From: Pseudomonas sp. FP2335
GTDB taxonomy: Bacteria; Pseudomonadota; Gammaproteobacteria; Pseudomonadales; Pseudomonadaceae
Direction: 5' to 3'
Assembly: GCF_030687535.1 (NCBI RefSeq)
Contig: NZ_CP117437.1
Location: 1,757,501 to 1,821,500 of the forward strand
Length of the DNA stretch: 64,000 bases
This document shows positions 15,893-24,127 of this stretch, piece by piece. Made by a program: the position numbers and the translations under genes. Within the stretch, counting starts at the first letter, position 1, and each line of letters begins with the position of its first letter. Below the pieces are notes generated by a model. The model saw nothing but the letters and a program-made list of their open reading frames with translations. It searched no databases and had not been told where the DNA came from.

Positions 15893-15894
15893 AA

Positions 15895-15984
15895 ATGTGT
15901 GCGGGCTTGCTCGCGAAGGCGGTGGATCAGCCAATGAATCTGTTGACTGACACACCGCCTTCGCGAGCAAGCCCGTTCCCACAT
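15895..15984. repeat. REPIN
   Basis: Inverted REP pair; the left arm starts 15895 and lacks two bases (ATGTGTGCGGG) compared with the right arm (revcomp ATGTGGGAACGGG), otherwise complementary through GCTTGCTCGCGAAGGCGGTG. It lies between the convergent permease and hydrolase genes. Confidence 0.85.
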
Positions 15985-15991
15985 GTTGAAT

Positions 15992-16924
15992 TCAGCCCGT
16001 CTTCAGCGCTTGGTGTTTTACAGAACAGGCGTCATCCAAAAACTTCACCACAGTCCCCATGCAGGCTTGGCGTTCTTCCACATGGGGCATGTGGCTGGAG
16101 TCTTCAAACAGTGCCCAGCGCACGTCCGCGATCTCATCCAGGAACGGCTTGACCACCAATGGCGTGGCCTCGTCGTGCCGGCCGGAGATCACCAGGGTCG
16201 GCACCTGAATCGCCGACAACCGGCCAATCGACTTCCAGTCCTTCAAGCTGCCGATCACGTGGAATTCGGTCGGGCCGCTCATGGCGTGGTACACCGTGGG
16301 GTCTGAGTCGACTTGGGCAAAGGTGCGCGCCACTTCTTCCGGCCACGGGTTGACCCGGCACACGTGCTGGTCATAGAAAATCCGCGAGGCGGCGAGGTAT
16401 TCCGGGTCTTGGTAGGTGCCGGCGGCTTCGTGCTTGAGCAAGGTTTCGTGCACGCCTTCGGGCAACAGCTTGCGCAGGCGGTTGGCTTCGCTGACCCAGG
16501 TGCGCATGCACGTCGGCGAGTTGGCTGGGATAAACGCGCGCAGGCCTTTGGGTTGGCGGATCGCATGTTCACTGCCGAGCATTCCGCCCCAGGACTGGCC
16601 GAGGATTGCGTAGTCGTCGCTGATGTTCAGGTGGTCGAGCAGGTTGTCGAGTTCGTCGAGGAACAACTCGACGGTCCAGAACGACGGGTCTTTATCCGGC
16701 AAGTGGGTGGAGCGGCCGTTGCCGAGTTGATCGTAGTGGATCACGGCATGGCCGCTGGCCGCGACGTCCTTGAAGGCGTCTACGTAGTCGTGGGTGCAAC
16801 CGGGGCCGCCGTGGATGATCACCAGCGGCGTGCGGCCGGTGGTCAGGTCGCCGGTAACACGGTACCAAGTCTGGTAGGCGCCAAACGCCGCATACCCTTC
16901 GCGGATTTTTTCGATGAATTCCAT
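15992..16924 (-). CDS. pip: proline iminopeptidase-family alpha/beta hydrolase (PipR-flanking, copy 1)
   Basis: Alpha/beta-hydrolase of 310 residues, peptidase family S33. Oxyanion segment HGGPG at 38-42, nucleophile elbow GQSWGG with S111, acid Asp in SGRHDEATP, and catalytic His in SSHMPH near the C-terminus. Family members release N-terminal proline or hydrolyse related amides. No signal peptide, so cytosolic. ATG 16924. A 20-bp lux-box-like palindrome sits 63 bases upstream, and the LuxR solo gene ends 95 bases away in the same direction. In plant-associated Pseudomonas, PipR controls an adjacent pip gene; the same arrangement is seen here. Confidence 0.87.
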
Positions 16925-16986
16925 TTCGTACCCTGCTCGTGAAAAAAAGGATCAGGGACACGATAGTCGGCACGCCAAATTTAGGT

Positions 16987-17006
16987 AACTAGCAAAACAG
17001 CTAGGT
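16987..17006 (-). promoter_or_regulatory. lux-box-like palindrome upstream of pip copy 1
   Basis: On the minus strand the site reads ACCTAGCTGTTTTGCTAGTT: 20 bases with ACCTAGC/GCTAGTT arms (one mismatch), the size and ACCT ends of a lux box. It is 63 bases upstream of the hydrolase start, suitable for LuxR-type activation. Confidence 0.65.
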
Positions 17007-17018
17007 TTTACTCTCTGG

Positions 17019-17804
17019 TCAATCTTCCAGGAGCCGGTAATGGGTGGCACGGACCACCGCTTGCACGCGGTTCTTGGCCCCCAGCTTATGCATCGCCGAG
17101 GCCAGGTGCAGGGTCACAACGGCCAGCGAACGGCTCAGTTGCGTGGCAATTTCGGCCGCAGTGAGGCCGTCGGCGGCCCATTTCAGGCACTCGCGTTCGC
17201 GTTTGGTCAGGTGAATATGCGGGTAGGTGCGTAGCTCTTTGCTGAACAGCGGGTAGGCCGCTTCCTGCAAGGCGTGGGTAATCAGGCTGAAATCCGCGAG
17301 GGTCTGCTGTGCATCCTCCAGTACGCTGCGCGCCTTGCCGATGCGCAAGCCCGTCAACGAGGCGAAACCGCCGCGGGGCAGGTGGATCGGCACGCTGACG
17401 CCGCAGGTCAGTTGGCGTTCGTGCAGGTAGGACGAAACAGGAGCATGGCAGGGGTCGATGATCTTTTGCAGGGCCGTCTGGGCTTTTGCCTCGTAGGACC
17501 AGACAAACGGCGATACCGTGCTCAAGGCCAGGTGTTGCACCGGGTCGATCTGGTAGAAGCCTTCGCTGCACCACAAGGCGTGCCAGTCTGGTGGGGTGTT
17601 GCGCAACTCCAGCACCGAGGGGGTGATCAAGGCGCCGTCGTGATCGATGGGCACCGGGGTGTAGTCGTACACCAGCGCATCGAAACCCAACTGTTGGGCG
17701 AGGATAAAGGTGTTGTCCATCTGTTCGTCCAGGCTCCTGCCCGGCATCAGACGATTATTGAAGGCAGTAAGCTTGGCCAGCATCCGTTCTGCTCCCGAAT
17801 TCAT
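17019..17804 (-). CDS. pipR: LuxR solo regulator, PipR type
   Basis: LuxR-family regulator of 261 residues without any luxI nearby. Residues 20-175 form the autoinducer-binding domain and 193-250 the GerE helix-turn-helix (LTKRERECLKWAADGLTAAEIA). Aligning to TraR, W57 is kept (W74), Y61 is Trp (W78), and the D70-P71 pair is kept (D87-P88). The Tyr-to-Trp change is characteristic of plant-responsive solos (OryR, PsoR, PipR), which respond to plant-derived compounds rather than acyl-homoserine lactones. PipR of Pseudomonas GM79 senses an ethanolamine derivative with the help of an ABC importer. ATG 17804 preferred to GTG 17837. Both flanks carry lux-box-like sites. Confidence 0.82.
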   Translation of the reverse strand: MNSGAERMLAKLTAFNNRLMPGRSLDEQMDNTFILAQQLGFDALVYDYTPVPIDHDGALITPSVLELRNTPPDWHALWCSEGFYQIDPVQHLALSTVSPFVWSYEAKAQTALQKIIDPCHAPVSSYLHERQLTCGVSVPIHLPRGGFASLTGLRIGKARSVLEDAQQTLADFSLITHALQEAAYPLFSKELRTYPHIHLTKRERECLKWAADGLTAAEIATQLSRSLAVVTLHLASAMHKLGAKNRVQAVVRATHYRLLED

Positions 17805-17863
17805 TTGAATCTCGACTTGCGGCAAGTAGAATGCCACGCCCCGGCGAAGGACTGCCAGGCCAA

Positions 17864-17883
17864 ACCTATAAGAAATACTAGGT
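17864..17883 (+). promoter_or_regulatory. lux-box-like palindrome between pipR and pip copy 2
   Basis: ACCTATAAGAAATACTAGGT, 20 bases, with ACCTA/TAGGT ends (AACCTA/TAGGTT if extended one base each side). It lies 84 bases before the ATG of the second hydrolase gene and 60 bases before pipR on the other strand, so it could serve both promoters. Confidence 0.65.
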
Positions 17884-17966
17884 TATGGACGCACGGCAAC
17901 CTCGGTAGTGTTGGCCTGATCAACGGCCGCTGCCAGCCAGGCTGATACCACACAAGGAACGTATGC

Positions 17967-18854
17967 ATGTGGCGTGAAATTGCCCCCGACCAGCAATACA
18001 ACGTGAGAGTCGACGGCCACAACCTCGTGGTCTACAGCTTCGGCGACGGCGATGAGGTGCTCTTGTGTCTCAACGGTGGCCCGGGCCTGCCGTGTGACTA
18101 TTTGCGCGACGCCCATGGCTGGCTCAAGGAGCATAACCTGCGAGTGGTTGCATTCGACCAGCTTGGCACGGGCGCATCAGCCAGACCCACCGATGTTTCC
18201 CTGTGGGAAATCGGCCGTTATGTCGAAGAAGTCGAAACCGTCCGCCAAACCCTGAACCTGGGGCGTGTGCATTTGCTCGGGCACTCCTGGGGCGGTTGGC
18301 TCGGCATCGAATACGCCATTCATTACCCCGATGCGCTGAAAAGCCTTATCCTCGAAAATACCGTCGGCGACATTCCGCACTTGTCCCAGGAACTTGAACG
18401 CCTGCGCGGTGCCCTTGGCAGCGAAACCGTGGCAATGATGCAGCGCCATGAAGCCATGGGCACCCTCGATCATCCGCAATATCAGGCCGCAATCACCCTG
18501 CTCAACTACCGTCACGTGTGCCGCTTGGACGAGTGGCCGGAGCCGGTCAAGCGCTCCCTCGGCGACTGGAACATGGGCCCGTACGAAACCATGCAAGGCC
18601 CCAACGAATTCCTCTACGTCGGCAACCTCAAGGACTGGAACCGCATCGCCGAAATGGCCGAGTTCAAGATGCCGACACTGATCACCACCGGCCAACACGA
18701 CGAACTCACCCCGGCCTGCGCCATGCGCATGAAGATGGCGGTCAAGCACGCTGAACTGCACGTATTCCCCAACAGCAGCCATATGCCGTTTTACGAAGAG
18801 CCCCAGGCGTACTTCCCGGTGCTACTCGACTTCCTCGCGCGTCACCGAGGCTGA
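17967..18854 (+). CDS. pip: proline iminopeptidase-family alpha/beta hydrolase (copy 2)
   Basis: S33-family hydrolase of 295 residues, a diverged paralogue of the copy at 15992. NGGPG oxyanion segment at 36-40 (Asn in place of His), nucleophile S107 in GHSWGG, Asp in TTGQHDELTP, His in SSHMPFYEE. Cytosolic. Start ATG 17967 with AAGGA upstream (another ATG four bases earlier is out of frame). First gene of a probable six-gene operon with the ABC importer (permease starts 3 bases after the stop). Having a hydrolase next to a peptide/amide importer suggests uptake followed by intracellular cleavage of the signal or of peptides. Confidence 0.87.
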   Translation: MWREIAPDQQYNVRVDGHNLVVYSFGDGDEVLLCLNGGPGLPCDYLRDAHGWLKEHNLRVVAFDQLGTGASARPTDVSLWEIGRYVEEVETVRQTLNLGRVHLLGHSWGGWLGIEYAIHYPDALKSLILENTVGDIPHLSQELERLRGALGSETVAMMQRHEAMGTLDHPQYQAAITLLNYRHVCRLDEWPEPVKRSLGDWNMGPYETMQGPNEFLYVGNLKDWNRIAEMAEFKMPTLITTGQHDELTPACAMRMKMAVKHAELHVFPNSSHMPFYEEPQAYFPVLLDFLARHRG

Positions 18855-18857
18855 CGG

Positions 18858-19805
18858 ATGAACCTGGCGCGCTACCGTTTTGTGCTGTCCCGGCCACTGC
18901 AATTGCTGCCGGTGCTGTTTGGCATCAGCCTGATCACCTTCATCCTGGTGCGCTCGATCCCCGGCGACCCGGCGCGCGCCTTGCTCGGCTCGCGCAGCAC
19001 GCCGGATGCGTTGCTGAAGATCCGCGCCCAGTACGGCCTCGACCAGCCGCTGTGGCTGCAATATTTCTACTTCCTGAAGAACCTGCTCAAGGGCGATCTC
19101 GGCCAGTCGCTGTTGTACAAGGTTGACGCCTTGAAACTGATCGTCACCCGCATCGAGCCGACCCTGGTGCTGGTGCTCGGCAGCGTACTGCTGGCGTTGC
19201 TGATCGCGGTGCCGCTGGCCACCCTGGCGGCGCGCAATAAAGGCGGTTGGGTGGACAACCTGATCCGGGTGTTCACCACGGTCGGCCTGGGCATGCCGGC
19301 ATTCTGGCTGGGCTTGATGCTGATTCTGTTGTTGAGCGTGCAGTGGGGCTTGTTCCCGGTATCCGGCTACGGCCGCACCTTTCTCGACAAGGCGCACCAT
19401 ATGGTCTTGCCGTGTCTGACCATTGCCCTGGCGCTGTCGGCGGTGCTGGTGCGCAACCTGCGTGCGAGCATGCTGATGGAGTTGCAGGCCGATCACGTCA
19501 CCGCCGCTCGGGCACGGGGTCTGTCAGAAGCCGCGGTATTTCGCCGGCATGTACTGCCCAATTCCCTGGTGCCGGCGGTCAACCTGCTGGCGGTGAATAT
19601 CGGCTGGCTGATCAGCGGCACGGTGGTGATCGAAAGCCTGTTCGCCATCCCCGGTATCGGCCAATTGCTGGTGCGCGGCATTTTCACCCGTGACTACATG
19701 GTGGTGCAGGGCGTGGCCATGGTGCTGGCGTGTGCGACGGTGCTGGTCAACTTTGTCGCCGACGTGGTGACGGTGGCCCTCGACCCACGGGTGAAGATGC
19801 AATGA
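18858..19805 (+). CDS. ABC transporter permease, DppB/OppB type
   Basis: Inner-membrane permease of 315 residues, six predicted helices. N-terminal RFVLSRPLQLLPVLFGISLITFILVR-type helix (broken here by position), GDPAR loop, and the EAA-type motif ARARGLSEAAVFRRHVLPN for contact with the ATPases; typical DppB. Part of the importer operon and overlaps the next gene by four bases (ATGA). Probably imports a short peptide or the plant signal sensed by PipR. Confidence 0.9.
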   Translation: MNLARYRFVLSRPLQLLPVLFGISLITFILVRSIPGDPARALLGSRSTPDALLKIRAQYGLDQPLWLQYFYFLKNLLKGDLGQSLLYKVDALKLIVTRIEPTLVLVLGSVLLALLIAVPLATLAARNKGGWVDNLIRVFTTVGLGMPAFWLGLMLILLLSVQWGLFPVSGYGRTFLDKAHHMVLPCLTIALALSAVLVRNLRASMLMELQADHVTAARARGLSEAAVFRRHVLPNSLVPAVNLLAVNIGWLISGTVVIESLFAIPGIGQLLVRGIFTRDYMVVQGVAMVLACATVLVNFVADVVTVALDPRVKMQ

Positions 19806-20659
19806 GCAGCCGCCCGTTGATTGCACCCTGGCGCTTGCGCCTGCGCTTGGGTTTTCGCAATGGTCGGCTGACCGCTGCGTGGGGGTTGTTGATCCTGCTG
19901 TTGTGGTTTGTCCTGGCGTTGCTTGCGCCATGGATCGCGCCCTATGACCCGATTGCGCAGAACACCGATTTCAGCCTGTTGGGCCCCAGCTGGGCGCATC
20001 CTTTCGGCACCGATAACTACGGCCGCGACATTCTCTCCAGGGTGATCTGGGGCGCACGCATCGATCTGCAACTGGCGATTGTCGGGGTGATCTTCCCGTT
20101 CATGATCGGCACCTTTGTCGGCGCGGTGTCGGGCTATATCGGCGGGCGCTTCGACAGCTTCTGCATGCGCGTGATCGACGTGATCCTGGCGTTTCCGTTC
20201 CTGGTGCTGATGCTGGCGATCATGGCCATCCTCGGGCCGGGCCTGAAGAGTTTCTACATCGCCATGGCGCTTGTGGGCTGGGTGTCGTATGCGCGCCTGA
20301 TCCGCTCGCAGATCCTGGTGCTCAAGGAAAGCGATTTTGCCCTGGCCGCCAAGAGCCTGGGCTTTGGTCATGGGCGCATTCTGTTCCGGCATCTGCTGCC
20401 GAATGCGATGTTTGGCTCGATTGTGTTTTCCATGTCGGACGCGGTACTGGTGCTGCTCAACGGTGCGGCCGTGAGCTACCTGGGGCTGGGTGTGCAACCG
20501 CCCACTGCCGAGTGGGGGACGATGGTCGCCGAAGGGCAGGCGTTCATCACCACCGCCTGGTGGATCTGTACGTTCCCCGGCCTGGCCATCGTCACCTTGG
20601 CCATGGGTTTCAGCCTGCTGGCCGATGGTGTCGCGCAAGTGTTGGGGGATCGTTCATGA
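19802..20659 (+). CDS. ABC transporter permease, DppC/OppC type
   Basis: Second permease, 285 residues. Conserved N-terminal helix followed by the DPIAQN-(x)-HPFGTDNYGRDILSR signature of DppC/OppC, and the EAA loop KSLGFGHGRILFRHLLPN. Pairs with the DppB-type protein to form the channel. ATG at 19802 overlaps the previous stop; its own stop overlaps the next ATG by four bases. Confidence 0.9.
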   Translation: MSSRPLIAPWRLRLRLGFRNGRLTAAWGLLILLLWFVLALLAPWIAPYDPIAQNTDFSLLGPSWAHPFGTDNYGRDILSRVIWGARIDLQLAIVGVIFPFMIGTFVGAVSGYIGGRFDSFCMRVIDVILAFPFLVLMLAIMAILGPGLKSFYIAMALVGWVSYARLIRSQILVLKESDFALAAKSLGFGHGRILFRHLLPNAMFGSIVFSMSDAVLVLLNGAAVSYLGLGVQPPTAEWGTMVAEGQAFITTAWWICTFPGLAIVTLAMGFSLLADGVAQVLGDRS

Positions 20660-21612
20660 GCCTGTTGCAGGTGCAGGACCTGAGTGTGATTGCCAACAAT
20701 GCCGGGCGCGATGTGACCCTGGTGGATCGCGTGTCGTTTGCGCTGGCCGAAGGCGAAATCCTCGGCCTGGTGGGCGAGAGCGGTTCGGGCAAGACCATGG
20801 CCTGTCGCGGCCTGATGCGCCTGTTGCCGTCGCCGAACCTGCGCGTGCAGGGCGGCGCCGTCCGGCTTGCCGGACAGGACTTGTTGCAGTTGGACGATGC
20901 CGGCATGCGGGCTGTGCGCGGTGGGCAACTGGGCATGATCTTCCAGAACCCGAGCAGCCACCTCGACCCGCTGATGCGCATCGGCGAACAGATCGCCGAG
21001 GGCATTCGCCTGCATCAGGGCGCCTCGAAAAAAGACGCACGCCTGCAAGCCATCGAGGTGCTGCGCCAAGTCGGCATTCCCGATCCCCAGGCGCGGGTCG
21101 ACAACTACCCCCACGAGTTTTCCGGTGGCATGCGCCAACGTGCGATGATCGCCGTGGCCCTGGGCTGCAACCCGAAAGTGCTGATCGCCGACGAGCCGAC
21201 CACTGCGCTCGATGTGACCGTGCAGGCGCAGATCCTGCGGCTACTGCTGGACCTGCGCGACCGTCGCGGCCTGTCGCTCATCATGATCACCCACGACCTC
21301 GGCGTGGTGGCGCAGACCTGCGATTCCATCGCGGTGATGTACGCCGGGCGCCTGTGTGAACACGGCAGCAAGTACGAACTGCTGGCCCATCCGCAACACC
21401 CGTACACGGCGGGCCTGATTGATTGCCAACCGGCCCATAGCAGCGGTCACGCCTTGTTGCGCACCATCGCCGGGCAACCGCCGCTGCTCGATGCATTGCC
21501 CGCCGGCTGCCGCTTCAGCCCGCGCTGCCCGCAGGTCGGCGCCTTGTGCACACAAGTGCTGCCGGAAGGTGCGCGAGTCGCCTGTCATTACCCACTGGGG
21601 GTGTCGGCATGA
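20656..21612 (+). CDS. ABC transporter ATPase, DppD/OppD type
   Basis: ATPase of 318 residues: Walker A GESGSGKT at 40-47, Q-loop [10 protein letters not shown], signature FSGGMRQR from 155, Walker [14 protein letters not shown]-loop MITHDLGVV, and the oligopeptide-transporter C-terminal region with the Cys motif [10 protein letters not shown], which in OppD-like subunits can hold an iron-sulfur cluster. ATG 20656, overlapping both neighbours by four bases, so translation of the operon is coupled. Confidence 0.9.
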
Positions 21613-22580
21613 GCCTGTTGCAGATCAAGGACCTGGAAGTGAAATTCGCCGCGTCCGGCACCGGCTTGTTCGGCTTGAATAAGCAGTGGGTGAGGGCGGT
21701 GAACGGGGTTTCGCTGAACCTGGCGGCGGGGCAAACCCTGGGCTTGGTCGGCGAGTCCGGCAGCGGCAAGAGCACCTTGGGCCGGGCGATCTTGCACCTC
21801 AATCCGATCAGCGCCGGGCAGGTGCTGTTCGATGGCGTCGACATGGCCCATGGCAGCCCCATCGACATCGCACGCCTGCGCCATGAAACCGCGATGATTT
21901 TCCAGGACCCCTACGCCGCGCTGAATCCGCGCCACACCGTCGGTGAAACCATCGCCGAAGTGCTGCGGGTGCAGCGCAAGGTCGCGCCAGGGCAGATCCC
22001 GGCCCGGGTCGATGAACTGCTCGAACTGGTGGGCCTGCGCCCCGAACTGGCCAGCCGCAAGCCCGGCACCCTCAGCGGCGGCCAGTGCCAGCGCGTCGGC
22101 ATCGCTCGGGCGCTGGCGGTGGAGCCGCGCTTGATCATTGCCGATGAGTGTGTGGCGGCGCTGGATGTGTCGATCCAGGGCCAGATCATCAACCTGTTGC
22201 TGGAACTGCAACAGCGCATGAACCTGGCGATCCTGTTTATCGCCCATGACCTGGCCATCGTGCGCCGCCTGTGCGACCGGGTGGCGGTGATGTACCTGGG
22301 CAAGATCGTCGAGGAAGGGCCGGTGGAAGCGGTCTTCACCACGCCGCGCCATCCGTACACGGCTGCGCTGATCCAGGCGATTCCCGAGATCGATCCGCAC
22401 AAACCTTTGCCTACTGAACCCTTGCCTGGTGAGCCACCGAGCCCACTGAATCTGCCTACTGGTTGCGCCTTTCACCCGCGTTGCCGGCATGCGCAAACGA
22501 TGTGTGCCGCGGTGTTGCCGCCCACCCATTTCCTGCACGAGCATCGATACAGTTGCGTGCTTGAAGAACCCTTGCTTTAA
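21609..22580 (+). CDS. ABC transporter ATPase, DppF/OppF type
   Basis: Second ATPase, 323 residues, starting at ATG 21609. Walker A GESGSGKST at 48-56, Q99, signature LSGGQ at 155-159, Walker B LIIADE with E180, H-loop IAHDLAIV, C-terminal oligopeptide domain with TGCAFHPRC. Two positions are unusual: C160 replaces the common Arg after LSGGQ, and C181 replaces the nearly invariant Pro of the DEP motif. The catalytic residues themselves are intact, so it is probably active. Confidence 0.9.
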   Translation: MSLLQIKDLEVKFAASGTGLFGLNKQWVRAVNGVSLNLAAGQTLGLVGESGSGKSTLGRAILHLNPISAGQVLFDGVDMAHGSPIDIARLRHETAMIFQDPYAALNPRHTVGETIAEVLRVQRKVAPGQIPARVDELLELVGLRPELASRKPGTLSGGQCQRVGIARALAVEPRLIIADECVAALDVSIQGQIINLLLELQQRMNLAILFIAHDLAIVRRLCDRVAVMYLGKIVEEGPVEAVFTTPRHPYTAALIQAIPEIDPHKPLPTEPLPGEPPSPLNLPTGCAFHPRCRHAQTMCAAVLPPTHFLHEHRYSCVLEEPLL

Positions 22581-22612
22581 CCCTCTGCCATTCATTAACA
22601 AGGAGTTGTGAT

Positions 22613-24127
22613 ATGCAATCGCGCCACTTGAAGTCTCTCGCCGCCGCTACATTGACCCTATGGTCCCTGACTACCGGGTTGGCGCAAGCCGCTGGGGTAC
22701 TGACCATCGGCTGTCGTGAAGACAGCACCACGTTCGACCCGATCAAAAGCGCGCAAAACCGCGATACCTGGGTGTTCGCCAACGTTTACGACACCCTGGT
22801 GCGCGTGGATAACCTGGGCACCAAGATGGAGCCGGGGCTGGCAGAAAGTTGGGATATTTCCAAGGACGGCCTGACCTACACCTTCAAGCTGCGGGATGCG
22901 AAGTTCTCCGACGGTTCGCCGATCACCGCCGAGGATGCGGCGTTCAGCCTGTTGCGCATCCGCGACAACAAAGCTTCGCTGTGGGCTGACCCGTTCAACC
23001 TGATCAACACGGCCAAGGCGACGGATCCGAAAACCCTGGTGGTCACCCTCAAGACTCCGGCCGTAGCCTTCCTCTCGCAATTGGCGTCGCCGACGGTATC
23101 GATCCTGTCGGAAAAAGCCATGACCAAGATGGGCGAAGACGCCTACTCGGAAAACCCGGTGACCTCCGGCGCGTTCACCGTAGACGAGTGGCGCAAGGGC
23201 GATCGTGTGATCCTGAAGAAGAACCCGAACTTCTGGCAGGCCAAGAACGTGAGCCTGGATGGCGTGGAGTGGGTCTCGGTGACCGACGACAACACGCGCA
23301 TGCGCATGGTGCAGAACAACGAGCTGGATACGGCGATCTTCGTGCCGTTCTCGCGGGTTGAAGAACTGAAGAAAGACAAGAACGTGGTGATCCACGCCGA
23401 CCCGTCGACCCGTGAAGATCATCTGTTGATCAACCACGAGCACGGCCTGCTGGCCAAGCCCGAAGTGCGTCAGGCACTGGACCTGGCCATCGACAAACAA
23501 TCGCTGGTGAAGACCGCCACCTACGGTCAGGGCACTGTGGCGTATTCCTATATCCCCAAGGGCTCGCTGTACCACTACGCCAACAACCTGCAACGCCCGT
23601 ACGACCCGGCCGAAGCCAAGAAACTGCTGGCGGCTGCCGGTGCCAAGGACTTGAAGCTCAACTATGTGGTCAACGCCGGCAACGAAGCCGACGAGCAGAT
23701 CGCGGTGATCATCAAGGACCAACTGGCCAAGGTCGGCGTGACCGCCAACCTGCAAAAGGTCGACCCGACCCAGAGCTGGCAGATGCTGGTGGACGGTGAG
23801 TACGATATTTCGGTGATGTACTGGACCAACGACATCCTCGACCCGGACCAGAAGACCACCTTCGTGCTGGGCCACGACACCAACCAGAACTACATGACTC
23901 GCTACAAGAACGACAAGGTCAAGGACCTGGTGGCAGCCGCGCGGATCGAAGCGGACCCGGCCAAGCGTGAGCAGATGTATGTGCAATTGCAGAAGTTGGC
24001 GAAGCAGGATGTGAACTGGATCGACTTGTACTACAGCCCGTATATCAATATCTCGCGCAGCAATATCAGTAACTTCCTGCAGAACCCGTTGGGCCGCTTC
24101 ACCCTTGAAGAAGTGGTGAAAAACTAG
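22613..24127 (+). CDS. ABC transporter substrate-binding protein, family 5
   Basis: Periplasmic solute-binding protein of 504 residues, SBP_bac_5 (DppA/OppA) family. Sec signal peptide with hydrophobic core and AQA cleavage site near residue 25. Family features: TFDPIKS, then SWDISKDGLTYTFKLRDAKFSDGSPITAEDAAFS-type segment from about residue 80, and the usual C-terminal lobe. AAGGAG ribosome site, ATG 22613. Last gene of the pip-ABC operon; in the PipR system of other strains a peptide-type binding protein is required to sense the plant signal. Confidence 0.9.
   Translation: MQSRHLKSLAAATLTLWSLTTGLAQAAGVLTIGCREDSTTFDPIKSAQNRDTWVFANVYDTLVRVDNLGTKMEPGLAESWDISKDGLTYTFKLRDAKFSDGSPITAEDAAFSLLRIRDNKASLWADPFNLINTAKATDPKTLVVTLKTPAVAFLSQLASPTVSILSEKAMTKMGEDAYSENPVTSGAFTVDEWRKGDRVILKKNPNFWQAKNVSLDGVEWVSVTDDNTRMRMVQNNELDTAIFVPFSRVEELKKDKNVVIHADPSTREDHLLINHEHGLLAKPEVRQALDLAIDKQSLVKTATYGQGTVAYSYIPKGSLYHYANNLQRPYDPAEAKKLLAAAGAKDLKLNYVVNAGNEADEQIAVIIKDQLAKVGVTANLQKVDPTQSWQMLVDGEYDISVMYWTNDILDPDQKTTFVLGHDTNQNYMTRYKNDKVKDLVAAARIEADPAKREQMYVQLQKLAKQDVNWIDLYYSPYINISRSNISNFLQNPLGRFTLEEVVKN

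Follow-up and report, generated by a model that had tools for sequence, protein, structure and literature searches.

The window analysed here is a 64,000-nucleotide (nt) stretch of DNA from Pseudomonas sp. FP2335 (contig NZ_CP117437.1), which corresponds to C1:1757501-1821500 of one 6.06-Mb chromosome. At positions 15992-24127 it carries, consecutively, pipA and the LuxR solo gene pipR on the minus strand, and aapA and a five-gene peptide-type ATP-binding cassette (ABC) importer on the plus strand. An initial interpretation based on the letters alone (hereafter, the sequence-only reading) described these genes as a complete PipR-type module of the kind present in Pseudomonas GM79, and the gene content, order, strands, operator distances and tree clade reported below all match that description.

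The pipA gene (15992-16924, minus strand), located downstream of pipR, encodes a proline-iminopeptidase-family α/β hydrolase of 310 amino acids, and aapA (17967-18854, plus strand) encodes a 295-residue hydrolase of the same family that is the ortholog of the GM79 alanine aminopeptidase. The two products match TIGR01250 at 253.1 and 281 bits, respectively, against a cut-off of 167.65, which confirms the two flanking peptidase-family genes. The product of pipR (17019-17783, minus strand; 254 amino acids) scores above the cut-off for PF03472 (Autoind_bind) and PF00196 (GerE), and its residues W67 and W71 correspond to positions 57 and 61 of TraR. The importer, all on the plus strand, consists of the permeases aapB (18858-19805; PF00528, PF19300) and aapC (19802-20659; PF00528, OppC_N), the ATPases aapD (20656-21612) and aapE (21609-22580), both with ABC_tran and oligo_HPY domains, and the periplasmic binding protein aapF (22613-24127; SBP_bac_5); this is the five-gene composition that had been proposed. 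The predicted start of aapC at MSSRPL overlaps aapB by 4 nt, that of aapD at MSLLQV overlaps aapC, and that of aapE overlaps aapD, with ATG codons present at all three. These overlapping starts and the gap of 3 nt between aapA and aapB fit a single operon.

The distribution of the module was examined in a named-locus scan of the best 80 of 103 confirmed relatives, all of which are Pseudomonas, with GM79 as L103; 56 of the 80 loci are close kin of the window. The eight core genes are found in the same order and on the same strands at 76 of the 80 loci, GM79 included. The four exceptions are L056 and L086, which lie on short contigs, L074, in which aapC was matched over 72%, and L091, in which aapF and most of aapE are missing. 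This last locus, from Pseudomonas sp. ANT_H4 (L091:4776-5192 and beyond), keeps pipR, pipA and aapA-D and represents a natural importer-deficient locus. In Pseudomonas sp. PDM05 (L092), the module proteins are 99-100% identical to those of the window throughout. Near relatives also have the outer neighbours pbuX, yciK, gph and ubiG in common (44 of the 45 loci whose flanks are complete), and none of these four genes was found in the flanks of L094-L117, the 24 more distant loci to which GM79 belongs. By eye, a repetitive extragenic palindromic (REP)-type inverted repeat (CGGGCTTGCTCGCGAAGGCGG and its complement) is visible at 15893-15983, in the gap where pbuX and pipA converge. A pipR match at E 1e-30 or better occurs in 65 of 298 sampled Pseudomonas genomes, the window's own included, and matches at 1e-40 in 12 of 398 genomes of the phylum; none of 635 plasmid records contains a match at 60% identity or more. 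The Pip system is common in Pseudomonas but not universal.

The sequence-only reading had placed a 20-base palindrome upstream of each hydrolase gene, at 16987-17006 and 17864-17883, and both are found exactly there. The first, ACCTAGCTGTTTTGCTAGTT (minus strand), is the predicted PipR operator of pipA, and its centre is 72.5 nt upstream of the ATG. The hexamer TATCGT at 16960-16965 (minus strand), 21 nt after the box, is the likely -10 element of the pipA promoter, and a -10 element is expected at that spacing for a LuxR-type site that overlaps the -35 region. The column consensus built from the window and 79 loci (80 rows) has TATcGT 21 nt past the pipA box, with variants such as TAAGGT in L116 and TATCTT in L106. 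The second palindrome, ACCTATAAGAAATACTAGGT (17864-17883, plus strand), is a predicted divergent operator that is possibly shared; its centre is 93.5 nt before aapA and 90.5 nt before pipR. Across the 80 named Pseudomonas loci, all 79 pipA promoters that could be read contain a best-match box agreeing with the consensus in at least 9 of its 10 arm bases, 65.5-73.5 nt before the start, and the same holds for all 80 aapA promoters, at 72.5-94.5 nt. By the same measurement, the boxes of the GM79 locus are at 68.5 nt (pipA) and 91.5 nt (aapA), against 72.5 and 93.5 nt in the window; the published GM79 distances are 71.5 and 91.5, and a two-base change in the GM79 pipA site abolished PipR-dependent activity (PMC4981722). 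In a promoter and terminator scan, the signals were no more than expected by chance.

The exact pattern ACCTA-N9-CTAGNT matches two sites in the 6.06-Mb genome, and both are these palindromes. The same pattern read backward gave 14 + 14 matches in this genome, and this control also outnumbers the pattern when up to one mismatch is allowed. CTAG is rare in such genomes, which is probably why the control is richer, and the count of two is therefore partly an effect of composition. A genome scan of both strands with up to one mismatch returned 72 rows, four of which are the two boxes. The boxes have matrix scores of 28.1 and 25.9, and the next best site scores 13.7; the matrix was trained on Pseudomonas boxes that include near-copies of the window's own, so this gap arises partly by construction. 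The context of 11 weaker sites was read: the two with the highest scores fall within coding frames, C1:4037646, ranked third, overlaps the beginning of a frame, and C1:4839704, ranked fourth, is intergenic. PipR targets outside the locus are thus unsupported genome-wide within a scan that was limited to one mismatch and did not search for more diverged sites, and because the strict operator is confined to this locus, the predicted direct regulon is local. An exact site is present at least once in each of the 65 genomes with a pipR match at E 1e-30, and 60 of these genomes have two or more. As a genus-wide diagnostic the box was rejected, since exact sites also occur in 123 of 233 genomes without a pipR match.

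The open frame of pipR extends over 287 codons in most near relatives. The start is most likely the ATG at 17783, which yields 254 amino acids, and not that of a longer frame, because the ATG is preceded by the Shine-Dalgarno sequence GGGAGC and because stop codons occur in frame within a few codons before the matching position in L102, L117 and L105. The length of GM79 PipR is given as 289 amino acids (PMC7683790), which would fit an ATG located 37 codons upstream, in the operator region of the GM79 locus; in our reading, this annotation is too long at its 5' end. The second GM79 operator is described as overlapping the pipR coding sequence (PMC4981722), and with the shorter start this overlap would be an effect of annotation. 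The second palindrome is most likely intergenic, at approximately 90 nt from pipR as well as from aapA, a placement that makes autoregulation of pipR, which we infer, testable.

The region between the aapA-side operator and pipR contains a conserved non-coding block, TGGCATTCTAC (17826-17836, minus strand), whose consensus over 81 aligned rows is at least 97% conserved. In this block and the adjoining bases, strong conservation (CTGGCaGTCC, CGTGGCATTCTAC) between the divergent operator and pipR persists even where the reading frame is broken. The blocks near 17826-17836 resemble a sigma-54 element in part, not fully: in the sigma-54-like candidate before pipR, TGGCATTCTACTTGC (GG-N10-GC), the GC is missing in at least L112, L116 and L117 among the 19 of 81 rows viewed.

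Aligned with TraR, PipR has Trp at positions 57 and 61, which confirms the Trp at 61 that had been noted before, and its Trp61, Gln73 and Leu105 (TraR numbering) follow the subfamily pattern of W61, Q73 and Leu/Met105. The changes of Tyr61 to Trp, Val73 to Gln and Ala105 to Leu constitute the plant-responsive pattern (PMC8546723, PMC7301841, PMC3821632). W57M is given for a plant-responsive subgroup whose stated prototype is OryR of Xanthomonas (PMC8546723), and the sequence-only reading set the retained Trp57 of this PipR against the classic W57M/Y61W solos and took it as a hint that the ligand range may differ. The residue is indeed retained, but it is not unusual: GM79 PipR itself keeps Trp57 and Trp61 (PMC4981722; PMC7301841), and every one of the 79 scored named Pseudomonas loci has Trp57. 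The 57/61 states of 222 aligned regulators are W/W in 148 rows and M/W in 63, counts that are not independent since locus rows and database rows overlap; the related-protein listing comprises 120 of 306 proteins. P0010, P0053, P0064, P0067 and L105 are unreadable or odd at these positions (L105 is W/W by eye), and L172 has Leu/Trp.

In a tree of 56 chosen rows, in which Kosakonia P0092 stood for PsrR and OryR, PsoR and NesR themselves were absent, the PipR of the window is placed in a 13-row clade with GM79 PipR (support 95/94), and five W57/Y61 outgroup regulators are separate (100/100). Within this set of rows, the position outside the PipR clade that would have spoken against the sequence-only reading was not seen. 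All M/W rows group in a single clade (99/96), which consists of enterobacterial and rhizobial proteins and of L157 and L164 from the Pseudomonadaceae. Most simply, Trp57 would be ancestral in the PipR line and Met57 derived once, with the caution that the outgroup branches are long and the root is less sure than the clades. If Trp57 is ancestral, it does not point to an unusual ligand range, and the hint drawn from this residue is not upheld. Trp57 was rejected as a feature that sets this PipR apart, since GM79 PipR and all the scored loci share it and Met57 marks a single clade. For the same residue, PipR is not filed in the W57M/Y61W subclass of OryR, PsrR and NesR.

An importer is located beside Met57 regulators in L158-L162, L170 and L171, of which L158 and L170 lack aapA, and no importer was found in the stretch taken for L164 and L166. 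In the Pseudomonas genome that contains L164, a Trp57 module is accompanied by a second PipR paralog, of the Met57 type, which has a pip gene of its own (L164:9241-10956; G101:C15). Pseudomonas L165 and L167 contain pipA, pipR and the importer with no aapA match between pipR and aapB, and their Trp57 regulators branch beside the Met57 clade.

AapF is identical at 463 of 478 positions (15 substitutions) to the AapF chain of PDB entries 7kz8 and 7kz9, and 7KZ9 is the AapF of Pseudomonas sp. PDC86 bound to the ethanolamine derivative HEHEAA (PMC11168924). GM79 AapF is approximately 80% identical to both the window and PDC86 proteins, and the window thus falls in the same lineage as the crystallised protein. 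From the 463/478 identity to PDC86 AapF, the AapF of the window is predicted to bind HEHEAA. HEHEAA is not a ligand of the Vibrio sensor CqsR (PMC7046293). Among the literature matches listed, no work on PDC86-type AapF was found beyond that cited here.

Taken together, these data make it very likely that the module is an intact ortholog of the GM79/PDC86 Pip system, with import and sensing of an HEHEAA-type compound and feedback. By analogy, the ligand and the regulation would be the same in this strain as in GM79 and PDC86. In the proposed mechanism, periplasmic AapF would capture HEHEAA, or an ethanolamine- or peptide-like compound close to it, which AapBCDE would then pump into the cell. 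PipR, with a Trp57/Trp61 pocket that is not a pocket for N-acyl-homoserine lactones (AHLs), may then bind the compound and subsequently both 20-bp operators. From the operator 72.5 nt before pipA, it would activate the promoter with the putative -10 element 21 nt after the box; at the divergent operator, its activation of aapA-F would be weaker, and it may also act on pipR there. PipA and AapA would finally destroy the signal or a derivative of it and so close a negative-feedback loop. In GM79, dependence on PipR and AapB and the peptidase activities were shown, and the feedback loop is the model of the authors (PMC4981722). A published plant-signal circuit is therefore present and looks intact in this strain, although the kind of circuit has already been described.

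Several observations weigh against this assignment. The -10 element on the aapA side is weakly conserved, which agrees with the small effect of PipR on aapA in GM79 (PMC4981722). The shuffle control confined to the window is modest: with up to one mismatch, the window has 4 matches, each of the two sites being counted on both strands, whereas 100 shuffles gave a mean of 1.08 and 5 of them reached 4 matches. PipR is identical to GM79 PipR at 185 of 252 positions, with approximately 70% identity in the ligand half and 85% in the helix-turn-helix (HTH) part, and its pocket has Glu at position 49 (TraR numbering; residue 59 of PipR) where GM79 has Lys, and Leu at 110 where GM79 has Met. A close AapF homolog of another species cannot bind HEHEAA, according to a review (PMC10134790).

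The genes could also serve as a nutritional importer of peptides or amines with scavenging peptidases, in which case PipR would be an ordinary substrate-induction regulator and not the receptor of a plant cue. Every linked gene functions in uptake or hydrolysis, the strict operator and hence the predicted direct regulon are local, and GM79 responds to peptone as well as to leaf macerate (PMC4981722). The mechanics would be the same as those of the Pip circuit outlined above, and the biological meaning alone would differ. The leaf-macerate response of GM79 and the importance on the host that the authors of the same paper summarise for related regulators of plant pathogens make this purely nutritional role rather unlikely.

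A second possibility is that the circuit is the same and the cue is different: the PipR of this subgroup would have shifted to another small amine or peptide, with HEHEAA imported but a weak inducer, and position 49 would mark the shift. This residue is acidic or neutral (Glu, Gln or Ala) in 56 of 56 rows of the subgroup (L038-L093) and basic (Lys or Arg) in 22 of 23 other Pseudomonas rows, one having Gln; L105, which has no alignment there, was dropped from the count. The faster divergence of the ligand half than of the HTH part points in the same direction. Kosakonia PsrR, which has Glu at 49 but Met57, gave no response to HEHEAA, and residue 49 (K96 in GM79 PipR, E58 in PsrR) is among the pocket differences between PipR and PsrR; PsrR departs from PipR at other pocket positions too (PMC7301841). 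On the other hand, position 49 is among the highly substituted ligand-site positions of plant-responsive solos generally (PMC3821632), 14 of 16 compared pocket positions are equal to those of GM79 PipR, and the AapF of the same subgroup, that of PDC86, is the protein crystallised with HEHEAA. A changed cue is thus unlikely. For ligand range, position 49 is a better lead than Trp57, a lead and not a result, and it offers a concrete point for ligand choice in a lineage with a solved AapF-HEHEAA structure. A combined version, in which the locus is a closed local circuit with the chromosome's only two strict operators, one of them shared by pipR and the importer operon, and a charge switch at position 49 has redirected PipR in part to another cue, with HEHEAA still imported by AapF, is a speculative and quite improbable reading; if it were true, the receptor PipR would tune itself via the shared operator.

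The sequence-only reading reported no luxI, and this holds at the locus, where none is linked to pipR, but not for the genome. The sole luxI match, at C1:2245910-2246416, is approximately 470 kb from the module and adjoins another luxR-type gene (C1:2244976-2245596), and the strain is on this basis probably AHL-capable. That PipR still senses AHLs, the product of its own LuxI included, would be in line with its retained Trp57 and with this one luxI, but it is highly improbable in view of Trp61, Gln73 and Leu105, the different luxR beside the distant luxI, and the lack of response of the GM79 pipA reporter, whose PipR has the same Trp57 and Trp61, to six AHLs (PMC4981722).

Compared with known systems, the module shares with the GM79 Pip system (PMC4981722) the gene order, the strands, W57/W61, the two peptidase genes, the two 20-bp operators and the five-gene importer, and the GM79 proteins are identical to those of the window at 75% over 95% of the length for pipA, 88% for aapA and 89% for aapB. 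GM79 differs in PipR (185/252), in aapF (approximately 80%) and at pocket positions 49 (Lys, Glu in the window) and 110 (Met, Leu in the window), whereas AapF of PDC86 differs by the 15 substitutions only. The W57M/Y61W solos OryR, PsrR and NesR share W61, Q73 and a pip gene alongside, and their enterobacterial and rhizobial relatives also carry an importer, as in the window; for Xanthomonas, PMC4981722 describes the absence of a linked ABC importer. These solos differ from the regulator of the window in belonging to the Met57 clade and in operator variants such as CCCTATCACTTCTTATAGCT, which is found in L159, L161 and L171.

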